DNA of 28,509 nucleotides from a virus, in the IMG/VR virus record IMGVR_UViG_3300027760_000064, positions 1 to 28,509 of that record; one strand, written 5' to 3'. The notes under the pieces were generated by a model. The model saw nothing but the letters and a program-made list of their open reading frames with translations. It had not been told where the DNA came from and ran no database searches. The position numbers were made by a program, and so were the translations under genes. Below, in pieces: positions 2,576 through 19,499 of this stretch. The stretch's first letter is position 1. The number at the start of each line of letters is the position of its first letter.

Positions 2576-3439
2576 TCATGCTTCTTCAGCGAGTTTGCTG
2601 AAGTAGTCCATGTCATCATCCTCATCAACAGTAGATGATTCAACACGTTTAGGTGCTGCCTTTGCCTGTTCAACCGTAGTCCGTGCAACAGGTGCACCAC
2701 CATCCAAACCTAATACTTTATTAAGTTTAGTTTTCAATTCATCATATGATTTAAAGTTAGATGGATCGAGATGCTCTTTCAAAGAGTGTTCCGATTTCCA
2801 AATCTGTTCAAGTTTGCCATCATCAGAAAGCAAAGGACCAGGTGCAGCAAACTCAGACTTATCATAATTCTGATAACCTTCGACTTTGCGAATCTTGAGT
2901 TTGAAATTGGCACCAGTCCAGAAGTCAAACGGATTCATTGCCTTCTCATCCTCAAATGCAGGATTCATTGCTTCATTGATCTTATCAAAGATCTTTGCAC
3001 CAAACTTAAAGAGAAAGACTTTACCTTCATTATCTGGATTCTTAGAATCTTCAACAATGTAGACGTTAGAGATATACGAAAGGCGACGTTTTTGTTTACG
3101 AGCAATCTCTTTATTTGCTTCTACGCCAGAATTCCAAAGTTGAGTATTGTACTCAGAGACTGGATCTTTCTGATTAAGAGTAGTAAGAGAGTTCTCAATA
3201 TACCAACCACCAGGACCTTGAAAGCCGTGATTGAATACTTTAACCCATGGAAGACCTTCTTCTCCATCTACTTCAGGTGCGGGAAGAAACCGGATAACTG
3301 CGTATCCGTTACCTGCTTTGTCAACTTCTGGTTTCCAGAACTTGTCATCTTTAGATGCAGGTGTTGCATTGAGTTGTTCAATGGCTTTGGTAAGTTTGTC
3401 AAAGTTACCAGATGATTTTTTAAGATTTGCGAAGTTCAT
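2576..3439 (-). CDS. 32: gp32-like single-stranded DNA-binding protein
   Basis: A 287-residue homologue of T4 gp32, the protein that coats ssDNA in replication, recombination and repair. The core matches T4: KAGNGYAVIRFLP (residues 41-53), HGF and GGWYIE (71-82), NPDNEGKVFLFKFGAKIFDKI (134-154). N-terminal LKKSSG resembles the basic/Ser-Thr 'LAST' motif used for cooperativity, and the acidic C-terminus (VDEDDDMDYFSKLAEEA) is the usual docking tail for replication partners. The protein contains no cysteine at all: the T4 zinc ligands are replaced by SLTTLNQKDPVSEYNTQLWN, so this is a zinc-free variant. The ribosome site AAGGAA lies upstream. It is the last gene of the 33-59-32 cluster. Confidence 0.95.
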   Translation of the reverse strand: MNFANLKKSSGNFDKLTKAIEQLNATPASKDDKFWKPEVDKAGNGYAVIRFLPAPEVDGEEGLPWVKVFNHGFQGPGGWYIENSLTTLNQKDPVSEYNTQLWNSGVEANKEIARKQKRRLSYISNVYIVEDSKNPDNEGKVFLFKFGAKIFDKINEAMNPAFEDEKAMNPFDFWTGANFKLKIRKVEGYQNYDKSEFAAPGPLLSDDGKLEQIWKSEHSLKEHLDPSNFKSYDELKTKLNKVLGLDGGAPVARTTVEQAKAAPKRVESSTVDEDDDMDYFSKLAEEA

Positions 3440-3473: not shown

Positions 3474-4082
3474 TTAAACTACTGCACACATTTGTGACTT
3501 GAGTGCGTGTTTGTATTTAGTCACATCATAGTTCAAAAACGGTGCATATTTTGTGCATTTTTGAATAAAATCTGGAAAGATCAAATCATCATCAACCCTT
3601 TTGGTCCACATAGGAAAGAAGTTTAGGAATTGATTCATGATCATCACCGTCTCAAGTTTGATTCTCGACTGCACATAGTTATTATACAACAAAGGATACT
3701 CTCCGTCAACCACTTTCAGCAACTGTTGTGGAGAGTCTACACTTTCCATGAGAGTGGATAGATCTTGTTGGAAGATGTAGAAGAGAGACTGTTGTGTTTT
3801 TTGCCATACCTTAAAGGTAGACTCAGCGTCCTCAGAGAGGAGATCACCAGACCATAGTTTTGGTTTCTCTAAAAGATTAGAAACAAAGAAACCAAACATA
3901 TCATCTTTATTGTATTTACGAGATAACTTATAGAAAGTAAACTTGTCCTTTCTAATCATAAAAGAGTCTTGTGTTACATTTGTTTTACCAGAGTATTTTA
4001 CAAAATCATACTTCGAAGTAAAATGTAACTTCAATGCATGGAATAGTGCATAACATTCAAATCCACTGGATTCAACATTCAT
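3474..4082 (-). CDS. 59: gp59-like loader of the gp41 replicative helicase
   Basis: A 202-residue protein matching T4 gp59 in length and pattern: YALFHALKLHFTSKYDFVKY (11-30) parallels the T4 N-terminal segment, and RKDKFTFYKLSRKY (44-57) and FFVSNLLEKPKLWSGD (65-80) match the core. In T4, gp59 binds forked DNA and gp32-coated ssDNA and loads helicase gp41. It lies between 33 and 32 as in T4, and its ATG overlaps the stop of gene 33 (ATGA), so translation is coupled. Divergence from T4 is large, but position plus motifs make the call firm. Confidence 0.85.
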   Translation of the reverse strand: MNVESSGFECYALFHALKLHFTSKYDFVKYSGKTNVTQDSFMIRKDKFTFYKLSRKYNKDDMFGFFVSNLLEKPKLWSGDLLSEDAESTFKVWQKTQQSLFYIFQQDLSTLMESVDSPQQLLKVVDGEYPLLYNNYVQSRIKLETVMIMNQFLNFFPMWTKRVDDDLIFPDFIQKCTKYAPFLNYDVTKYKHALKSQMCAVV

Positions 4083-4303
4083 ATAGGTAGTCGATTAGTC
4101 TTTTTGATTAGATTAAGTGATTCCGCTTCTTCGGTAATCTTTGCTTTGAGTGATGCAGTCAGTAGAGTTGCAGCCATTTCGACTTCAAATCCAGTATTCT
4201 TGCAATGTTCTACGATTGCATCAATGTAAGTAATATCTCTATTGTTCTGAACTAATTCTTCAATGATTGCAGAGAACACTCTACATTCTTCTTTAGTAGG
4301 CAT
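4079..4303 (-). CDS. 33: gp33-like late-transcription accessory factor
   Basis: A 74-residue, mostly helical acidic protein. The pattern YIDAIVEHCKNTGFEVEMAA followed by LKAKITEEAESLNLI and a C-terminal LPI resembles the short gp33 proteins of cyanophage-type T4-like phages. In T4, gp33 bridges RNA polymerase and the sliding clamp so that gp55-bound polymerase fires late (TATAAATA) promoters. Placement immediately upstream of 59 and 32 supports the call. It overlaps the oxygenase stop by one base (TAATG). Sequence alone is weak; synteny carries the assignment. Confidence 0.75.
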   Translation of the reverse strand: MPTKEECRVFSAIIEELVQNNRDITYIDAIVEHCKNTGFEVEMAATLLTASLKAKITEEAESLNLIKKTNRLPI

Positions 4304-4893
4304 TATGATTTCCTTAGTGAGAGTGCTTTACGACCATCATACCGATGTGTCTTGCCATATTTGCCTTTTGCATCAACATAGTGTGTGAAGATTTGGCGAT
4401 GTTTTTGACCCTCGTATGCATTACGCCAATGAGGCAGAATAATACCAGAGTAAACAATCATATCACCATGATTCAATTCGACTTCAATTGTTTCACCATC
4501 GAGATTCTCAAAGTAAATTGGCCATGGTGTTTCATCTTTTTGCAAACAGATTGTTGCAGAGATTTCACAACTTGGTCGATCTGTGTGTCTTGCCAATACT
4601 GCACCATTATAATAAGTACGAACATAAGTGTATGACTCATTCAGTTCTTTACCTGTGATCTCTTCCATTAATGGCTTCAAATACACCATCAAAGACTCAG
4701 AGTAATTAGGTGAATAGTTGGCAAAACTATTCTTCACTTGTTCATCACCAAAAGGAAAGAAGTTCTTTAGTCCTTTCTTATACTCTGCCATATATGCAGA
4801 CTCAAGAATCTCTGCCGAGATCTGAATAAAACTAATCAAATCTTCGCTAATTGCATTCCGTACAACTTCATATTTGTCTTTCTGAAAAGACAT
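4303..4893 (-). CDS. 2-oxoglutarate/Fe(II)-dependent oxygenase
   Basis: A 196-residue double-stranded beta-helix dioxygenase. Iron ligands are visible as H103-T-D105 and the distal H155 (PHWRN), with R166 eleven residues later placed to hold the 2-oxoglutarate carboxylate. The surrounding pattern (YVRTYYNGAVLARHTDRPSC, GDMIVYSG) is that of prolyl-4-hydroxylase-like enzymes common in T4-like marine phages. The substrate is unknown; protein hydroxylation or nucleic-acid demethylation are both possible. A strong ribosome site (GGAGGTGA) precedes the ATG. It is co-transcribed with 33-59-32. Confidence 0.88.
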   Translation of the reverse strand: MSFQKDKYEVVRNAISEDLISFIQISAEILESAYMAEYKKGLKNFFPFGDEQVKNSFANYSPNYSESLMVYLKPLMEEITGKELNESYTYVRTYYNGAVLARHTDRPSCEISATICLQKDETPWPIYFENLDGETIEVELNHGDMIVYSGIILPHWRNAYEGQKHRQIFTHYVDAKGKYGKTHRYDGRKALSLRKS

Positions 4894-4905: not shown

Positions 4906-5394
4906 TTATGCATAAAATATGTGTTTACCTATTTTGGTAATCTTCCGTTTCTTCCAGTGCGGATCAACGTATGTAGCATGATAATACAACGCATCGTTGA
5001 GTTTTGTCAAGCGGTATCCGTCGAACAGAACCTTTTCTGCTGCCGCTTTAGAATCAAGATATTCTTTTGAGTTTGTTGGTATTTGACGTTTATACTTAAT
5101 ACACACCCATGAGAATTGGCAAGTTTTGTTTGTCTTTTGATATACAGTTCTACAGATATTATTTTTGAATAGACCAGAATTAACTCTATTCAACGTGACC
5201 TGTGCAACTGCTAATTTACCTTTAAAAGGTTCAGACTCTGCCTCATAAAAAATATTGTTTGTTAGACAATTTAACTCTTTCTGTATGTTAGGAACTAAAG
5301 AGTATGTTTCTCGCACATTTGCTATTGTTGTAGCGTTCATTAAACCAAAAATGAGAAATGTTCCTAACAAGACTTTGATAGTCTTGTGTAACAT
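4906..5394 (-). CDS. Secreted SleB-type cell wall hydrolase
   Basis: A 162-residue member of the Hydrolase_2/SleB family. Residues 1-25 form a signal peptide (basic start, hydrophobic VLLGTFLIFGL, Ala-rich end). The catalytic region begins CLTNNIFYEAESE with E51 the likely catalytic acid, continues GKLAVAQVTLNRV, and ends with the family signature YYHATYVDPHW (H139) and GKHIFYA. Several Cys (43, 81, 92, 98) could form disulfides after export. Such enzymes cut peptidoglycan in the periplasm; here it is a candidate endolysin or lysis helper. It lies directly downstream of the tmRNA with ribosome site AAGGAAACGA. Confidence 0.85.
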   Translation of the reverse strand: MLHKTIKVLLGTFLIFGLMNATTIANVRETYSLVPNIQKELNCLTNNIFYEAESEPFKGKLAVAQVTLNRVNSGLFKNNICRTVYQKTNKTCQFSWVCIKYKRQIPTNSKEYLDSKAAAEKVLFDGYRLTKLNDALYYHATYVDPHWKKRKITKIGKHIFYA

Positions 5395-5414
5395 TCGTTT
5401 CCTTATCGAGTTTT

Positions 5415-5583
5415 GAAAGTGGTAGGTTATTCTGTTACGAGGAAACCTACCGAAACCCTAAGCAGTGTTTAGGCTGCTAATGCGTATTCGCTATCATTTG
5501 CGTTTACTTGATTTATTTTTAACGACTGATATGTCGAGTAGCCAATAATTGTACTTATTACTCCGTCGAATCTAGTCAGGCCC
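5415..5583 (-). ncRNA. ssrA: tmRNA coding piece
   Basis: It starts GGGCCTGACTAGATTCGACG, the canonical tmRNA 5' pattern with the TTCGACG D-loop-like sequence. It carries H2, the tag frame (5501-5469) and a closing hairpin GGTAGGTT...AACCTACC (5451-5421). The true 3' terminus is not determinable; 5415 is chosen just after the hairpin. Confidence 0.85.
5469..5501 (-). other. ssrA: tmRNA proteolysis-tag reading frame, ANDSEYALAA-stop
   Basis: Resume codon GCA (5501-5499) is preceded by TAAAC, comparable to TAGTC before GCA in E. coli. Ten codons encode ANDSEYALAA and end at TAA (5471-5469). The ALAA end is the degron recognised by ClpXP-type proteases. Confidence 0.92.
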
Positions 5584-5654
5584 ATCAGAAGCATACTGTT
5601 TGGAACTTTTATTATGAGCATTGTTATCTCATTCACCAGTAGACAATACACTTC
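5584..5654 (-). other. ssrA: tmRNA intervening segment removed on processing
   Basis: These 71 nt separate the CCA end of the acceptor piece from the GGG start of the coding piece. In permuted tmRNAs this segment is cut out by tRNA-processing enzymes, leaving two RNA chains held together by pairing. RNase P cutting before G5583 is inferred. Confidence 0.75.
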
Positions 5655-5725
5655 TGGTGGACCTGGTGGGATTCGCACCCACGTCCGAAATACCTTTCTA
5701 AAAATCAGTTTACTACCATTGAGAA
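5655..5725 (-). ncRNA. ssrA: tmRNA acceptor piece
   Basis: This roughly 71-nt segment holds the 3' strand of H2, the tRNA-like T-arm, the 3' half of the acceptor stem, discriminator A and CCA. Its 5' end is predicted from the promoter at 5732-5760 (start near 5725). The CCA end must be produced by cleavage at 5655. Confidence 0.85.
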
Positions 5726-5731
5726 GTATTT

Positions 5732-5760
5732 AGTATATCAGGACTTGGCGAAGTTGTCAA
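5732..5760 (-). promoter_or_regulatory. sigma70-type promoter of the tmRNA
   Basis: TTGACA (5760-5755), a 17-bp spacer and TATACT (5737-5732) predict a start near 5725, exactly where the acceptor piece should begin. The -35 box contains the TGA stop codon of the tail-fibre gene. Confidence 0.8.
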
Positions 5761-8165
5761 GCACCAGTTACTATTCTCAAATTAAATTCTTTAGAAATTT
5801 CCGACAAAGTTGTCTTGTTTCTGATATAAATTGTACCGCTTGCATTTCTAGTAATATCATCTTGCGTTACCGTGAAAGTAATATATAGACCAATTCCTAC
5901 AGTATAGTAGGCTGATTGTCCTGAACCTCCTTTATTAACGCCGTTAATATTGAAAGTCGTTTGACTACCTATAGCACCACCAGAAACAGAAACTTCATAA
6001 TTCGTTCCTATTCCAGGCGTCAAAGTGTTAACATATTGAGTTGAACCAGATAACTTAACTGTACCAGCTGCTGATGGATCGCCACTAAAATCTCCTGATC
6101 CATCAATTGATCCATCGCCTCCTATGTACCATTTTATAGATGTTGGTGATATATTACCCTGATCATTCAAATAACTAAATGCCGCATCACTATCAAATCC
6201 TAATGCTGGGCCCGCCGACGTTGTAGTTATTGAAGAACTGGCAGAACTAGGTGAACTATCACCAACGGCATTTGTTGCTTTAACAGTAAATGTGTATGTT
6301 GTTCCCGCAGTTAATCCAGTTACATTAAATGTACCACCACTTGCTTGTGATAGTGTTGCAGTGATACTACCAGGACTGGAAAGTATCGTGTATGATGTAA
6401 TAGGTGAGTTACCATTAGATGCTGGTGCAGAAAATGATACATCCGCAGTCGTTTGTCCTGTTGCTGTTGCACCTGTAATCGTTGGTGCACCAGGTACTGT
6501 AGGTATAGCATTCGTTGTCATTGAACCACTATCTGCACTATAAGAACCATTTCCAACAGAGTTAGTTGCTCTAACCTTAAAAGTATAAGATGTGGATGCC
6601 GTTAGTCCGGATACTGTAATTGGAGAACTAGATCCTGTACCAGTTATGTTGCCTGGTGTCGAGATTGCAGTATAACTAGTAATTGCAGCACCGCCATCGG
6701 AAGATGGTGCAGTAAATGATACTGATGCAGTTGTTGTTCCAGTAGGAATAGCAGCGCCAATAGTTGGTGCACCAGGTACAGTTGCAGCAGATGTTGTCGT
6801 TATTGAAGAACTATCTGCACTATATGAACTGTCACCAACAGAGTTAGTTGCTTTTACCTTAAATGTGTATGAAGTACCAGCAGTTAGACCGGTGATATTA
6901 ATTGTACCTGATCCCGATTGACTAATTGTTCCTGTAATATTACCTGGTGTAGATATGGCAGTATATGATGTAATTGCAGCACCACCATTAGATGCGGGTG
7001 CACTAAATGCTACAGTTGCAGTTGTCTGTCCTGTTGCAATAACAGAACCAATCGTTGGTGCACCAGGTACTGTTGCTGCTGATCCAGTAGTTATAGAAGA
7101 TGTTGAAGAACTATATGCGCTATCGCCAACTGAGTTAGTTGCTTTTACTTTAAACGTGTATGTTGTTGAAGGTGATAATCCTGTGACTGTAATTATACCA
7201 TTTCCTGCCTGACTTAATGTTCCAGTTATATTTCCAGGTGTAGATATTGCAGTATATGATGTAATCCCAGCACCACCGTTATTTGCAGGTGCAGTATATG
7301 ATACAGTCGCAGATGTTGAACCAGTTGATGTTGCAACACCAATAGTTGGTGCACCAGGTACTGTTGCAACAGCCGATGTTGTTATTTGATTACTTGACGC
7401 ACTAGAAGAACTATTACCAACAGAGTTTGTTGCATATACTGTGAATGTATATGGCGTATTCGAAGTCAATCCATTAACAGTAATAGTACCAGATCCTGAT
7501 TGACTTAGTGTACCTGTAATTCCTTCTGGCGAAGAAACTGCCGTATATGATGTAATCATTGCACCACCATTTGATGCAGGCGCCGTAAACGATACTGTTG
7601 CTGAAGTTGAACCAGTTGATGTTGCAACACCAATGGTTGGTGCACCAGGTACCGTTGCTGCCACTGATTGTGATGTATCTTCAATGGTGACTGTAACACT
7701 AGTGGCAACTATAGATCCAGATGTAGATCCAGTTCTAATATTAATAGTAAATGTTTGTGAACCTTCAGTTGAACTGTCCGCGACTGGTAATACTAAAAAA
7801 GAACCTATATTATTGTTAATCGTAAACGATCCACTAACAGAAGAAAAGTCTGCATCAGAAGTGGTTATATGATTTATTGTCCAATATAGTGTAGTTCCAG
7901 TTCCGACAAGTGTGGTTGCAATATAATATGCTCCAGAACCACCTTCGTTTATTGTACTACTATACGTCTGGAAAGAATAAGTTGGAGTTGGAGCAGGCGC
8001 ATTTGATTTACCATAGAAATCTGTGGGCATTATCTCAGTAGAACCTGGCGTTGTTTTACCAGATAGTGTACGGACAGCAGTATCATTCAGACTAATTGTT
8101 CCTGACTGAGTGAGTTCTGTTCTAATATCACTTAATGATATAGCACCAGACGATGGTAAAGCCAT
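5757..8165 (-). CDS. Tail fibre/adhesin with Calx-beta-like and five fibronectin III domains
   Basis: An 802-residue virion-type protein. Residues 1-53 (MALPSSGAISLSDIRTEL..., ending TDFYGKS) match the N-terminal head found on many tail-attached proteins of T4-like marine phages. Residues about 64-163 look Calx-beta-like (TINEGG, DFSSVSGSFTI, STEGSQTF). Five fibronectin III repeats follow at about 170-266, 267-363, 364-460, 461-554 and 555-651, each starting (A/P)TVPGAPTI and containing YTF(K/T)V(K/R/Y)ATN(S/A)VG. A 151-residue Gly/Ser-rich domain ends the protein. Such proteins bind cell-surface carbohydrate; receptor recognition is inferred. A late box AATAAATA lies 28 bp upstream of the start. 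Confidence 0.82.
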   Translation of the reverse strand: MALPSSGAISLSDIRTELTQSGTISLNDTAVRTLSGKTTPGSTEIMPTDFYGKSNAPAPTPTYSFQTYSSTINEGGSGAYYIATTLVGTGTTLYWTINHITTSDADFSSVSGSFTINNNIGSFLVLPVADSSTEGSQTFTINIRTGSTSGSIVATSVTVTIEDTSQSVAATVPGAPTIGVATSTGSTSATVSFTAPASNGGAMITSYTAVSSPEGITGTLSQSGSGTITVNGLTSNTPYTFTVYATNSVGNSSSSASSNQITTSAVATVPGAPTIGVATSTGSTSATVSYTAPANNGGAGITSYTAISTPGNITGTLSQAGNGIITVTGLSPSTTYTFKVKATNSVGDSAYSSSTSSITTGSAATVPGAPTIGSVIATGQTTATVAFSAPASNGGAAITSYTAISTPGNITGTISQSGSGTINITGLTAGTSYTFKVKATNSVGDSSYSADSSSITTTSAATVPGAPTIGAAIPTGTTTASVSFTAPSSDGGAAITSYTAISTPGNITGTGSSSPITVSGLTASTSYTFKVRATNSVGNGSYSADSGSMTTNAIPTVPGAPTITGATATGQTTADVSFSAPASNGNSPITSYTILSSPGSITATLSQASGGTFNVTGLTAGTTYTFTVKATNAVGDSSPSSASSSITTTSAGPALGFDSDAAFSYLNDQGNISPTSIKWYIGGDGSIDGSGDFSGDPSAAGTVKLSGSTQYVNTLTPGIGTNYEVSVSGGAIGSQTTFNINGVNKGGSGQSAYYTVGIGLYITFTVTQDDITRNASGTIYIRNKTTLSEISKEFNLRIVTGA
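6213..7658 (-). repeat. Five tandem ~290-bp fibronectin III-encoding repeats
   Basis: Repeat units of 97, 97, 97, 94 and 97 codons lie head to tail within the fibre gene. Units 1 and 2 share an identical GVATSTGSTSATVS segment, indicating recent duplication or recombination between units. Confidence 0.85.
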
Positions 8166-8188: not shown

Positions 8189-8848
8189 TTAATATTTATT
8201 TGATTTATAAAATTCAATGTGTTCATATAACGTATCAACATAGTCTTTTGTTTCTTTCACAAAGATAAGTGGTTGTTCATTCTCAACTGCCATCAAAACT
8301 ACAATCTGGTCGATAGGTGCACCAACACGTTCTTCATACATCATTGCATATGCAACACATTGTGCAAAGTAATCTTGAATCTTATCTTCTGTCTTGATAC
8401 GTTTAGAAGTTTTAAAGTCGATAACCGATAGTTTACCTTCCCACTCTGCAATCAAGTCAACACGACCTGCAAGACCAATCTTCTCAGACCATAGTGCCTG
8501 TTCCATGTAATGGATATTATTGATCTTATCGAAGTGTGGTACAATCGATTGAAACATCTCGATTGCATCAGGCATCTCTTTCTTCCACTCAATCGATTCA
8601 TTCATCAAATGCTTTTCAGCAAGTGTATGTACTCGATTACCACGACCGGTTGCAAGTTTAGAAACTCGATTCGCTTCTGCTTCACCAACTCTACGGCGCC
8701 ATGCCATGATTTCTTTCTTCTTCATGGCACCAAGAACAGTAGTAACAGATGGTAATCGTTGACCAGATGGTGTTACATAGTATCGTTTGTCATCAACAGT
8801 TTCGGTGTTTAGATTCTCAATCACCATCGGTGGGCAATGTGTAAACAT
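8189..8848 (-). CDS. PD-(D/E)XK (RecB-like) exonuclease
   Basis: A 219-residue nuclease of the PD-(D/E)XK superfamily. The visible core runs: GRGNRVH with H74, a helix Glu near 122, AGRVDLI with D131, VIDFKTSK with D144-x-K146, then Q163 and Y167 in the family's terminal helix motif. This matches the RecB-family exonucleases found beside phoH in cyanophage-like T4-likes. A role in recombination or host-DNA degradation is likely; the exact substrate is unknown. The start overlaps the phoH stop (TAATG), so the two are coupled. Confidence 0.82.
   Translation of the reverse strand: MFTHCPPMVIENLNTETVDDKRYYVTPSGQRLPSVTTVLGAMKKKEIMAWRRRVGEAEANRVSKLATGRGNRVHTLAEKHLMNESIEWKKEMPDAIEMFQSIVPHFDKINNIHYMEQALWSEKIGLAGRVDLIAEWEGKLSVIDFKTSKRIKTEDKIQDYFAQCVAYAMMYEERVGAPIDQIVVLMAVENEQPLIFVKETKDYVDTLYEHIEFYKSNKY
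8193..8200 (-). promoter_or_regulatory. Candidate T4-type late promoter for the tail fibre
   Basis: AATAAATA on the minus strand is one base off the T4 late box TATAAATA and lies 28 bp upstream of the fibre ATG. That leaves a short leader containing AAAGGA. It overlaps the end of the preceding gene. Confidence 0.5.
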
Positions 8849-9552
8849 TATATTCCTAAGTTTTGTTTTTCAGTTAAATATCTACGCACGAACCCCGATC
8901 TGACAATATCATCAATACCGAATTGAATGTGTGAAATATCCTCAATTTTATCTAAGATTCTGACTGCATCAATGAAGCCAGACTTCTCTTTTTTGTTGTT
9001 TAGATCATTCTGTGCAAAGTCACCACAAAGAATGAATCTACAGTTTTCTCCGATTCTTGTCAAGACAGAATCGATTTCATGAAATGTTGCAGATTGAAAC
9101 TCATCAAAGATAATAATACAATCTCTAAATGTCAATCCGCGTAGAAATGATGTAGTTTGAAATTCTAGAATTTCTTTGTTGTATAGAAAGTGCCATGCAT
9201 CGCCACGACCAACCAACTCGTTGACGATATTCATGTATGGTTCTTGATAGATCTTTGCTTTCTCTTCCAATGTACCAGGTACGAAACCTAAGTCTCTTGA
9301 TGGTACTGCTGAACGAATGATAACAATTCGTTCGTAGTAAGAGCCTGTAGCAAGAACATCTTTAAGAGATAGGTACAACGCAAGAAATGATTTACCGGTA
9401 CCAGCAGATCCTGCAAGAACTAGATGATTACCTTTATCATATTCTTCAAATGTTTTTGTTTGATTCTTTGTTAAAGGCTGAACTTGTTTCAGGGAAAAAT
9501 GTTGCGATTGAGCCTGTGCGGCTGCTGTTTTTCTTCTAACTGTCTTAGCCAT
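8848..9552 (-). CDS. phoH: PhoH-like ATPase
   Basis: A 234-residue P-loop ATPase of the PhoH family. Walker A is GSAGTGKS (48-55), Walker B is IIIFDE (D150, E151), and RSAVPSRDLGFVPG (80-93) and FILCGDFAQNDL are family signatures. PhoH is near-universal in marine T4-like phages; a role in RNA/phosphate metabolism is suspected but not settled. It carries a basic, Ala/Gln-rich N-terminal extension (residues 1-24). Ribosome site AAGGGAACTAA precedes the ATG. Confidence 0.92.
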   Translation of the reverse strand: MAKTVRRKTAAAQAQSQHFSLKQVQPLTKNQTKTFEEYDKGNHLVLAGSAGTGKSFLALYLSLKDVLATGSYYERIVIIRSAVPSRDLGFVPGTLEEKAKIYQEPYMNIVNELVGRGDAWHFLYNKEILEFQTTSFLRGLTFRDCIIIFDEFQSATFHEIDSVLTRIGENCRFILCGDFAQNDLNNKKEKSGFIDAVRILDKIEDISHIQFGIDDIVRSGFVRRYLTEKQNLGI

Positions 9553-16507: not shown

Positions 16508-16575
16508 GTTGTAACCATACAACGAGTGTTGTTTTTACACAACACGCTTGACTTTTCTTCGGACCAGAGTAGAAT
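16508..16575 (+). promoter_or_regulatory. Early promoter P2 with two dyads
   Basis: Dyads GTTGT-AACCAT-ACAAC (16508-16523) and GTTGT-TTTTAC-ACAAC (16528-16543), 20 bp apart; TTGACT (16548-16553), 16-bp spacer, TAGAAT (16570-16575). The leader has GACGAAAACCGACAGGAAA. Confidence 0.85.
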
Positions 16576-17939: not shown

Positions 17940-19499
17940 ATGAAGATAGTTATTGTCGGCGGCGGTACCGCTGGTTGGATTGCAGCACTAATGATCAGTA
18001 AAAGGCATCCATATCACGAAGTTGCTGTAATAGAATCTAGTAAAATAGGCATTATCGGTGTGGGTGAAAGTACCACAGGCCGAATGACGGATATTCTAGT
18101 AAATTTTGTTCAAGATTTCGGTTGCAATCATGATGAATTTATTGTTGAAACCGGTTCAACATTGAAATATGGCATTCGCCATAAGGGCTGGACAAACAAT
18201 ATCAATCGATCATATTTTGGACCTATTGATGGATCTGATACGAGAAATTCTGTTCCTGACCCATTATTTTCATGGGGATTAAACAGATTAAACAACAATG
18301 ATCTTAACACTATTTCCAAATGCGGTTATTGGGTAAACAACGGTCTTTCTAATTTTAACAAAAATTCAGGCAAATTTAATTCATACTGGCATGCTTTGCA
18401 CGTTGATGCTTTCCTCGTGGGCAAATATCTCAAAAAGATTACCCTAAAAAGTAAAAGCGTTTCTCATATCGATGATGAGGTTGTCAATGTATCATTAAAC
18501 AGTTCCAATGGTTGCATAAAATCAGTAACATTAAAAAGTGGTCAAGTAGTTGATGGTGATTTTTTTATAGATTGTTCAGGTTTTCATAAAGTTTTAATGA
18601 AACATTTATCCAATAATTGGATTAGTTATCAAAAAAACTTGCCGTTGAATACGGGTATGCCATTTCAAATAAAATATAAACGAAATGAAATGCCAGAACC
18701 ATACACTACTGCGTGGGCTCAAAAGAATGGATGGATGTGGCAGACTCCTCTAATGGATCGAAAAGGATGTGGATATGTATTTTCTGATGCGTACACTACA
18801 GCTGATAAAGCACAGGAAGAAATAGAAACTATCTTAGGCCATAAGATCGATCCTATTAAAGTTATTAAATTTGATGCAGGACGGCAAGAGAGTGCTTGGA
18901 TTAAAAATTGTCTAGTTATTGGATTAAGTAGTGCTCTACTAGAGCCACTAGAAGCCACTAGTATTCACTCCACTATTGTTCAATCGCAAAACTTTGTCTT
19001 TGAATATTTAAAGAGTAATATAGAAGATACAATGAATGAAGGGTCAAGACTTATTTACAATAAACGTACCGCAACATTGTATGATGATCTTAAAGATTTC
19101 TTAGTAATGCATTACATGGGAGGTAGACAAGATAGTGAATTTTGGCAAATGATTAACACTGGTATAACTAAAACTCCATACGTTGAAGAATTGTTGTTAA
19201 TGTCAAAATCTAAAGTACCTAGTGTAAATGATTTTCCTAGTTATCCAGGAAGTGCAGGATGGCCATTGTATAGTTTTGTTATGGCAGGTTTAAATTTGAT
19301 TAATCCTAAATGTGGTGAAAAAGACTTAGATATGGTATTACCTGGTAATCGAATAATGAGAGATTTAGCTCATAATCATTATTACGACTTACAAAGTCAA
19401 TGGGCTAATGAAGGACGCCAGTCTATGACATATAATGAGTTTATCTCCTACTTTAGGAATTTGCGACACAAGAACGGATTCTCAGATTTCAAGTATTGA
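17940..19499 (+). CDS. Flavin-dependent halogenase (tryptophan-halogenase family, VirX1-like)
   Basis: A 519-residue FAD enzyme. The FAD site is GGGTAGW (7-13) and GVGESTTG (40-47). The catalytic lysine position of the family corresponds to K76 in STLKYGIRHKGW. The family W-x-W-x-x-P signature is W265-M-W267-Q-T-P270, and EPLEATSIHS (335-344) is the C-terminal substrate/FAD loop. Such enzymes use FADH2, oxygen and halide to make HOX, delivered through K76. A cyanophage homologue (VirX1) iodinates many small molecules. The substrate and flavin reductase partner are unknown. It is the largest gene of the right half and interrupts a run of tiny genes; it is best read as a cargo (auxiliary metabolic) gene. 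Confidence 0.9.
   Translation: MKIVIVGGGTAGWIAALMISKRHPYHEVAVIESSKIGIIGVGESTTGRMTDILVNFVQDFGCNHDEFIVETGSTLKYGIRHKGWTNNINRSYFGPIDGSDTRNSVPDPLFSWGLNRLNNNDLNTISKCGYWVNNGLSNFNKNSGKFNSYWHALHVDAFLVGKYLKKITLKSKSVSHIDDEVVNVSLNSSNGCIKSVTLKSGQVVDGDFFIDCSGFHKVLMKHLSNNWISYQKNLPLNTGMPFQIKYKRNEMPEPYTTAWAQKNGWMWQTPLMDRKGCGYVFSDAYTTADKAQEEIETILGHKIDPIKVIKFDAGRQESAWIKNCLVIGLSSALLEPLEATSIHSTIVQSQNFVFEYLKSNIEDTMNEGSRLIYNKRTATLYDDLKDFLVMHYMGGRQDSEFWQMINTGITKTPYVEELLLMSKSKVPSVNDFPSYPGSAGWPLYSFVMAGLNLINPKCGEKDLDMVLPGNRIMRDLAHNHYYDLQSQWANEGRQSMTYNEFISYFRNLRHKNGFSDFKY

Follow-up and report, generated by a model that had tools for sequence, protein, structure and literature searches.

Why a lytic phage would carry an RNA for ribosome rescue is the question raised by the minus strand of positions 5414-5774 of the window (the whole stretch of viral DNA that was analyzed, 28,509 nt). 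This region encodes a complete circularly permuted tmRNA gene, made up of an acceptor piece, an intervening segment and a coding piece (Table 1). ARAGORN called a permuted tmRNA at 5378-5747 (minus strand) with the tag ANDSEYALAA. The covariance-model check was passed with both RF04321 (tmRNA_permuted; 5717-5469, 125.7 bits against a cut-off of 47, E 1.6e-24) and RF01850 (beta_tmRNA; 5774-5414, 113.3 bits against a cut-off of 84, E 4.6e-34), the latter matched from its first to its last model position (1-331). The beta model scored above the alpha model, and the loci of 14 tested relatives also passed the RF01850 cut-off. The order is permuted, i.e., the T-arm and the CCA (5657-5655) precede the GGG start (5583), separated by the segment 5654-5584, and the predicted folding of the gene lies 3.0 standard deviations below that of shuffled sequences. 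The preliminary description of this DNA had read it as belonging to a T4-like phage that carries a permuted two-piece tmRNA, and ARAGORN, Rfam, covariation and the T4-type neighbors bear it out; the T-arm, encoded CCA, H2, UUCGAC motif, tag frame and promoter that it named could all be located. The acceptor stem, which it called perfect, does have seven pairs, but the third is a G.U wobble, and the two strands lie 75 nt apart rather than 72, with an excised segment of 71 nt. The T-loop UGCGAAU (with G at position 55), the intervening-segment helix and the 3' hairpin were absent from that description. Chance resemblance or a misread tRNA is ruled out by the Rfam E-values together with covariation in 31 sequences.

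Table 1. Features of the permuted tmRNA gene and its surroundings, in window coordinates
Feature	Position	Strand	Basis or remarks
-35 hexamer TTGACA, sigma-70-type promoter	5755..5760	-	11/12 matches together with the -10, spacer 17; kept in close relatives
Extended -10 TGATATACT (TATACT)	5732..5740	-	Near-consensus; kept in close relatives
Acceptor piece: T-arm, 3' acceptor strand, encoded CCA	5655..5725	-	ARAGORN, Rfam; 5717 is the first modelled base, 5' end approximate
GGUAG, outer inter-piece helix, partner CUACU 5541-5537	5713..5717	-	Helix 1 covariation
UAUUUCG, acceptor-piece H2 strand, partner CGGAGUA 5565-5559	5686..5692	-	Helix 2 covariation
T-arm GUGGG-UGCGAAU-CCCAC; G replaces U at loop position 55	5666..5682	-	Helix 3; 55 co-varies with D-loop 18
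CAGGUCC acceptor 3' strand (5665-5659), discriminator A and CCA (A-CCA 5658-5655)	5655..5665	-	Helix 4
Intervening segment of 71 nt, presumably absent from the mature RNA	5584..5654	-	End helix co-varies
Coding piece, GGG start to 3' hairpin	5421..5583	-	ARAGORN, Rfam; 3' end approximate
GGGCCUG acceptor 5' strand with G3	5577..5583	-	Covariation
D-loop ACUAGAUUCGACGG with UUCGAC motif; A opposite T-loop base 55	5563..5576	-	Rfam, alignment
CGGAGUA, coding-piece H2 strand	5559..5565	-	Helix 2
Outer-helix strand CUACU and pseudoknot-1 stem CGAC/GUCG	5523..5541	-	Helices 1 and 5
Tag frame GCA AAU GAU AGC GAA UAC GCA UUA GCA GCC UAA (ANDSEYALAA, stop)	5469..5501	-	ARAGORN
3' hairpin GGUAGGUU/AACCUACC, conserved loop UCCUCGUAACAGAAU, as in beta_tmRNA	5421..5451	-	Helix 7, Rfam
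Cell wall hydrolase (Hydrolase_2, PF07486; endolysin PHROG), downstream neighbor	4906..5394	-	Pfam, PHROGs
gp33 late-transcription coactivator (PF16805)	4079..4303	-	Pfam
gp59 helicase loader	3474..4082	-	Pfam/PHROGs
gp32 single-stranded DNA binding protein	2576..3439	-	Pfam/PHROGs
PD-(D/E)XK exonuclease (8189-8848) and PhoH (8848-9552), upstream part of the conserved gene order	8189..9552	-	

Relatives were gathered by IMG/VR pattern scans for permuted genes and by protein searches with the neighboring genes, giving about 280 contig stretches. For the covariation test, the structure of the window gene (41 pairs) was applied to 31 aligned related phage genes, with shuffled and slid controls. 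Pairing was found in 95.1% of the cells, against 79.5% after shuffling and 30-53% when the partners were slid by 1-3 columns. Two-sided changes occurred at 29 of the 41 pairs and in 190 cells, against a mean of 54.9 in the shuffled controls and 7-32 in the slid ones. The outer helix (helix 1) and the T-arm (helix 3, with a loop of 7 nt) were 100% paired in the 31 sequences, the former with two-sided changes at 4/5 pairs, and H2 (helix 2), which joins both pieces, was 98.1% paired (two-sided changes at 5/7 pairs). The acceptor stem (helix 4) was paired in all 31, with compensatory changes at three of its outer pairs; the covariation of this stem and H2, on which the preliminary description had made its reading depend, is thus retained in the related genes. 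All 31 acceptor stems have G3.U70, which is an alanine identity element, and the ACCA end is present. The weakest helix was the pseudoknot-1 stem CGAC/GUCG upstream of the tag (helix 5, one stem only; 79.8% paired). In the window gene the D-loop is stemless and carries UUCGAC.

The ends of the intervening segment also form a co-varying helix (columns 66-81 with 166-181 of the predicted consensus), which carries on from the acceptor stem past the CCA. Individual pairs show two-sided changes in as many as 16 sequences, and the same helix was found in bacterial permuted genes. The intervening segments of three relatives (L018, L042 and L216) have a common internal hairpin, around GGTATCGGCAGTAGCCAAAAGG, despite otherwise different phage tmRNAs.

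The 3' hairpin of the coding piece was 93.5% paired, with two-sided changes at 6/8 pairs, and across the related genes the tag frame is open and ends in a stop. We did not find smpB in 28 long related contigs, most of them fragments, and the phage tmRNA therefore would depend on a host partner. This absence would also suit a decoy, i.e., a phage RNA that binds SmpB or occupies ribosomes and so blocks host trans-translation. Inhibition of this kind has been proposed for the tmRNA of mycobacteriophage DS6A, which consists of the tRNA domain only; host tmRNA can be inhibited by such a tmRNA-like domain (PMC4131195; PMC11915505). However, the DS6A RNA has no tag, whereas here the coding piece with its resume context, tag and stop is retained in relatives with the usual tag end, and a decoy would need neither the tag nor the co-varying hairpin. 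We consider a decoy quite improbable.

Searched with all codons, the tag ANDSEYALAA was absent from 84,980 bacterial and archaeal species genomes, so that the host could not be identified by an identical tag; it was present at 15 viral loci, some of which are overlapping stretches of one contig. Tags differ between the phages, and most keep the form AND-x-x-(Y/F)-x-L-A-A. A tag peculiar to phages might direct chosen proteins to host proteases, e.g., for amino-acid recycling or the removal of host factors, an idea put forward for phage Melnitz (PMC9004378), and both the absence of the window tag from species genomes and the variation between phages would fit it. Yet the general form kept by most tags resembles ordinary degrons, and no mechanism is known by which a tmRNA could select proteins, which leaves selective tagging very improbable. 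The end of the tag varies in one relative (L157 4370-4682, compared with window 5490-5450), where LAA has become LVA with compensatory changes in the stem (AGCAG/CUGCU to AGUGG/CCACU); in this stem, which overlaps the tag end, RNA structure may constrain the degron.

The contact between the D-loop and the T-loop provides a second line of structural evidence. In tRNAs, position 55 of the T-loop is U and position 18 of the D-loop is G. The T-loop of the window gene, UGCGAAU, departs from this with G at 55, and its D-loop has A18 to match. Among 75 distinct sequences, G18 occurred with U55 in 40 and A18 with G55 in 34, with one exception, i.e., a concordance of 74/75. D-loop base 18 changed at least nine times on a tree built without the 18/55 columns, and in seven independent pairs on that tree a mean of 6.7 were concordant and none opposed (median p 0.016). 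Bases 18 and 55 would end up on separate pieces of the mature RNA, and their co-variation is therefore evidence for the assembly of a two-piece molecule. A G in place of the usual U at position 55 counts against a functional reading, but this is offset by bacterial alpha-type genes, which likewise have G there.

The tRNA-like part is also what distinguishes very close relatives. In three of them (L192, L194 and L208), the acceptor pairs, D-loop and T-arm have been replaced jointly, on both sides of the intervening segment, in comparison with window 5414-5760, while H2, the tag and most of the remaining sequence are unchanged; in L192 and L194 the neighboring proteins are mostly 83-99% identical to those of the window. 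This pattern points either to exchange of the tRNA-like domain or to its rapid co-evolution. In another phage (L230 4865-5239) gp32 is 78% identical, yet the tmRNA matches the alpha model (80.4 bits), whereas similar phages carry the beta type; here the tmRNA type seems to have been exchanged between related phages. Because the tRNA-like part is what varies between near-identical phages, the most interesting rival explanation is a replacement serving counter-defense: the phage tmRNA would substitute for a host tmRNA that a host defense or the phage itself cuts or switches off, and would itself escape the cut through a tRNA-like part that is unusual in its G55, A18 and altered stems. The swaps in L192, L194 and L208, with the same tag and H2, are what an arms race predicts. 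However, drift or recombination with other tmRNA lineages accounts for them equally well, and no nuclease or defense target is known here, so that we regard this explanation as unlikely.

The gene appears to have its own promoter, a near-consensus sigma-70 sequence on the minus strand (TTGACA-17-TATACT with an extended -10, 5760-5732), from which transcription is expected to start near 5725. Of 71 distinct phage tmRNAs, 29 have a sigma-70 promoter with 10-12 of 12 matches ahead of them, a count that omits one row (L173) with too little upstream DNA, against 2 of 72 shuffled stretches; some related phage tmRNAs have no recognizable promoter. On the plus strand, the window carries a repeated promoter-like cassette between 16506 and 28023, with copies near 16540, 17282, 20519, 21486, 22736, 23759, 24096, 25504 and 27976. 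It consists of GTTGC/GCAAC inverted pieces, TTGAC, about 17 bases and GTATAAT or GTAGAAT, often continues with ATTCTGTGGTCGAGAAAA and a ribosome-binding-site-like AAGGA, and lies ahead of many small genes; the cassettes look like a set of early promoters. Among these small genes is one resembling tryptophan halogenases (PHROG 2928, 17940-19499).

Upstream of the tmRNA are genes for a protein with fn3 repeats, the PD-(D/E)XK exonuclease and PhoH, and downstream those for the cell wall hydrolase, a 196-aa protein, gp33, gp59 and gp32. The adjoining T4-type gp32, gp33 and gp59 place the gene in the genome of a T4-like phage. The 196-aa protein (4303-4893) has an HxD...H pattern like that of 2-oxoglutarate oxygenases; its PHROGs family is labelled "ferrochelatase," and Pfam gave no match. 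Over its first 11,439 bases the window is identical to a section of a contig of 88,946 bases, and it therefore represents a real virus population. DNA-level searches for relatives among cultured phages gave no match with megablast and, with blastn, chiefly short stretches of tRNA-like sequence. Several of the metagenomes come from what we take to be freshwater lakes.

All or part of the order PhoH, exonuclease, tmRNA, hydrolase, gp33, gp59 and gp32 is seen again in about 100 viral contigs. In a sample fetched through gp32 alone, 26 of the 27 T4-like contigs spanning exonuclease to gp33 have a tmRNA (20 by ARAGORN and six more by covariance models); L272 is the only one in which neither detected it. 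That a host ssrA gene had been picked up by chance, through an integration site or transduction, and sits here as a functionless passenger or relic could be imagined, given that ssrA genes are common integration sites (PMC9004378, PMC11915505), but a locus conserved among replication and late-control genes in so many contigs, no integrase seen beside the tmRNA in the window, strong covariation and an intact tag make it scarcely credible. The single locus in about 100 contigs, the phage-specific tags and the near-universal presence point instead to selection as a working RNA and not to stray capture.

As to the origin of the gene, a tree of 69 alpha- and beta-type tmRNA genes from phages and bacteria contained a beta clade of 56 rows (support 100/98), with 43 phage and 13 betaproteobacterial genes, separate from the alpha type, to which the genes of Pelagibacter phages Mosig and HTVC008M belong. 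The window gene falls in a phage-only group, and we infer from the tmRNA type that its host may be a betaproteobacterium. A second tag pattern matched only one Azoarcus genome, which was used as the center for sampling bacterial genomes; only 22 of 399 sampled genomes of the bacterial order passed the cut-off of the permuted model. The best tree places the main bacterial beta clade within the radiation of the phage genes and so suggests transfer from phages to bacteria, but the AU test did not reject monophyly for either the bacterial (p 0.43) or the phage genes (p 0.32) and thus does not decide the direction. The position of the bacterial clade and the 22 of 399 genomes led us to consider that T4-like phages might be an old reservoir of permuted tmRNA, from which scattered two-piece betaproteobacteria obtained theirs in replacement of a one-piece gene; this is a tentative and rather doubtful reading. 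The unsettled direction of transfer and the swaps of the tRNA-like part between close phages were the less expected outcomes.

Conservation of sequence and structure, a promoter-like site and a fixed locus in the T4-like group are established at the level of the genomes compared. Taken together, models far past their cut-offs, covariation, G3.U70, the 18/55 contact, the open tag, the promoter and the presence in 26 of 27 contigs argue for a functional, phage-owned permuted tmRNA of betaproteobacterial type, which probably rescues ribosomes during infection with host partners. Host RNA polymerase would transcribe it early from the sigma-70 promoter, and host RNase P and 3' nucleases would cut out the intervening hairpin, leaving two pieces held by the acceptor stem, H2 and the outer helix. 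The RNA would then be charged by host AlaRS via G3.U70, enter stalled ribosomes with host EF-Tu and SmpB, and add ANDSEYALAA to the unfinished protein for host ClpXP-type proteases, freeing the ribosome. The phage would thereby keep a constant pool of ribosomes available at a time when mRNA is being cleaved in the infected cell, and it might no longer rely on a host tmRNA that is in short supply, degraded or under attack. In T4 infection, when host tRNAs and most mRNAs are broken down, host SsrA is one of only four host transcripts to remain stable (PMC9697503), consistent with a tmRNA being useful to T4-like phages, and a two-piece tmRNA works in Caulobacter (Keiler et al. 2000, as summarized in the review PMC3985003). 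The supplementing or hijacking of ribosome rescue put forward in the preliminary description is plausible and close to the guess made for Melnitz (PMC9004378). The exact pieces are now defined for synthesis.

The preliminary description took such a gene to be rarely or never described in T4-like phages, but two-piece tmRNAs beside gp33 (Melnitz, Mosig) were published in 2022, so that genes of this kind have precedents. In Melnitz, which is T4-like, Buchholz et al. (2022) found a two-piece tmRNA adjoining the gp33-type coactivator gene; they also reported a permuted tmRNA in 17 of 47 Melnitz-like contigs and, in a set of 18,146 phage genomes, 53 two-piece tmRNAs, of which 50 were aquatic (PMC9004378). 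At the corresponding locus of Pelagibacter phage Mosig the GenBank entry has an SsrA annotation, and we found an unannotated permuted tmRNA in Pelagibacter phage HTVC008M (KC465899.1 145161-145370, 90.6 bits). All three resemble the window in being T4-like, with a permuted gene between exonuclease and gp33/gp59/gp32. In contrast, Melnitz (by its paper, PMC9004378) and Mosig (by its alpha_tmRNA match and the tree) are alpha-type, and HTVC008M groups with the alpha type in the tree, whereas the window gene is beta-type and lies in the beta clade. Tags also differ, GEDNFALAA in Mosig and ANFNEYALAA in HTVC008M (ARAGORN) against ANDSEYALAA. Melnitz has a predicted glutamine riboswitch (PMC9004378), while none reached the gathering threshold in the window or 14 related loci. 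A riboswitch search of the window to E 1 gave nothing credible, the Giardia U2 and rnk_pseudo rows being far below their gathering scores. In Mosig a manA RNA motif lies above the cut-off upstream of gp32 (L288 5264-5471).

Of the bacterial types, the betaproteobacterial permuted tmRNA (RF01850) shares with the window gene the order, the 3' hairpin with its conserved loop, the intervening-segment helix and the clade (100/98), but its intervening segment has 25-43 nt instead of 71, its loop contact is G18/U55 instead of A18/G55 and its tags are ANDERFALAA-like. The alphaproteobacterial type (Caulobacter type, RF01849) shares the two-piece form and the A18/G55 contact but forms a separate clade (100/98). 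Mycobacteriophages Bxz1, Wildcat and others and Bacillus phage G carry ssrA as the window does, but in one piece and not permuted. Older lists give ten phages with tmRNA, mycobacteriophages and Bacillus phage G, and the DS6A RNA, although phage-borne, is a tRNA-like domain only (PMC4131195); the tmRNA database holds 79 phage sequences (PMC11915505). Permuted tmRNA was already known in a few marine phages, whereas here, as far as the contigs compared indicate, it is a beta-type fixture of a whole uncultured T4-like phage group. What is new is the beta-type clade, the near-universal presence at one locus in the T4-like group and the covariation evidence.
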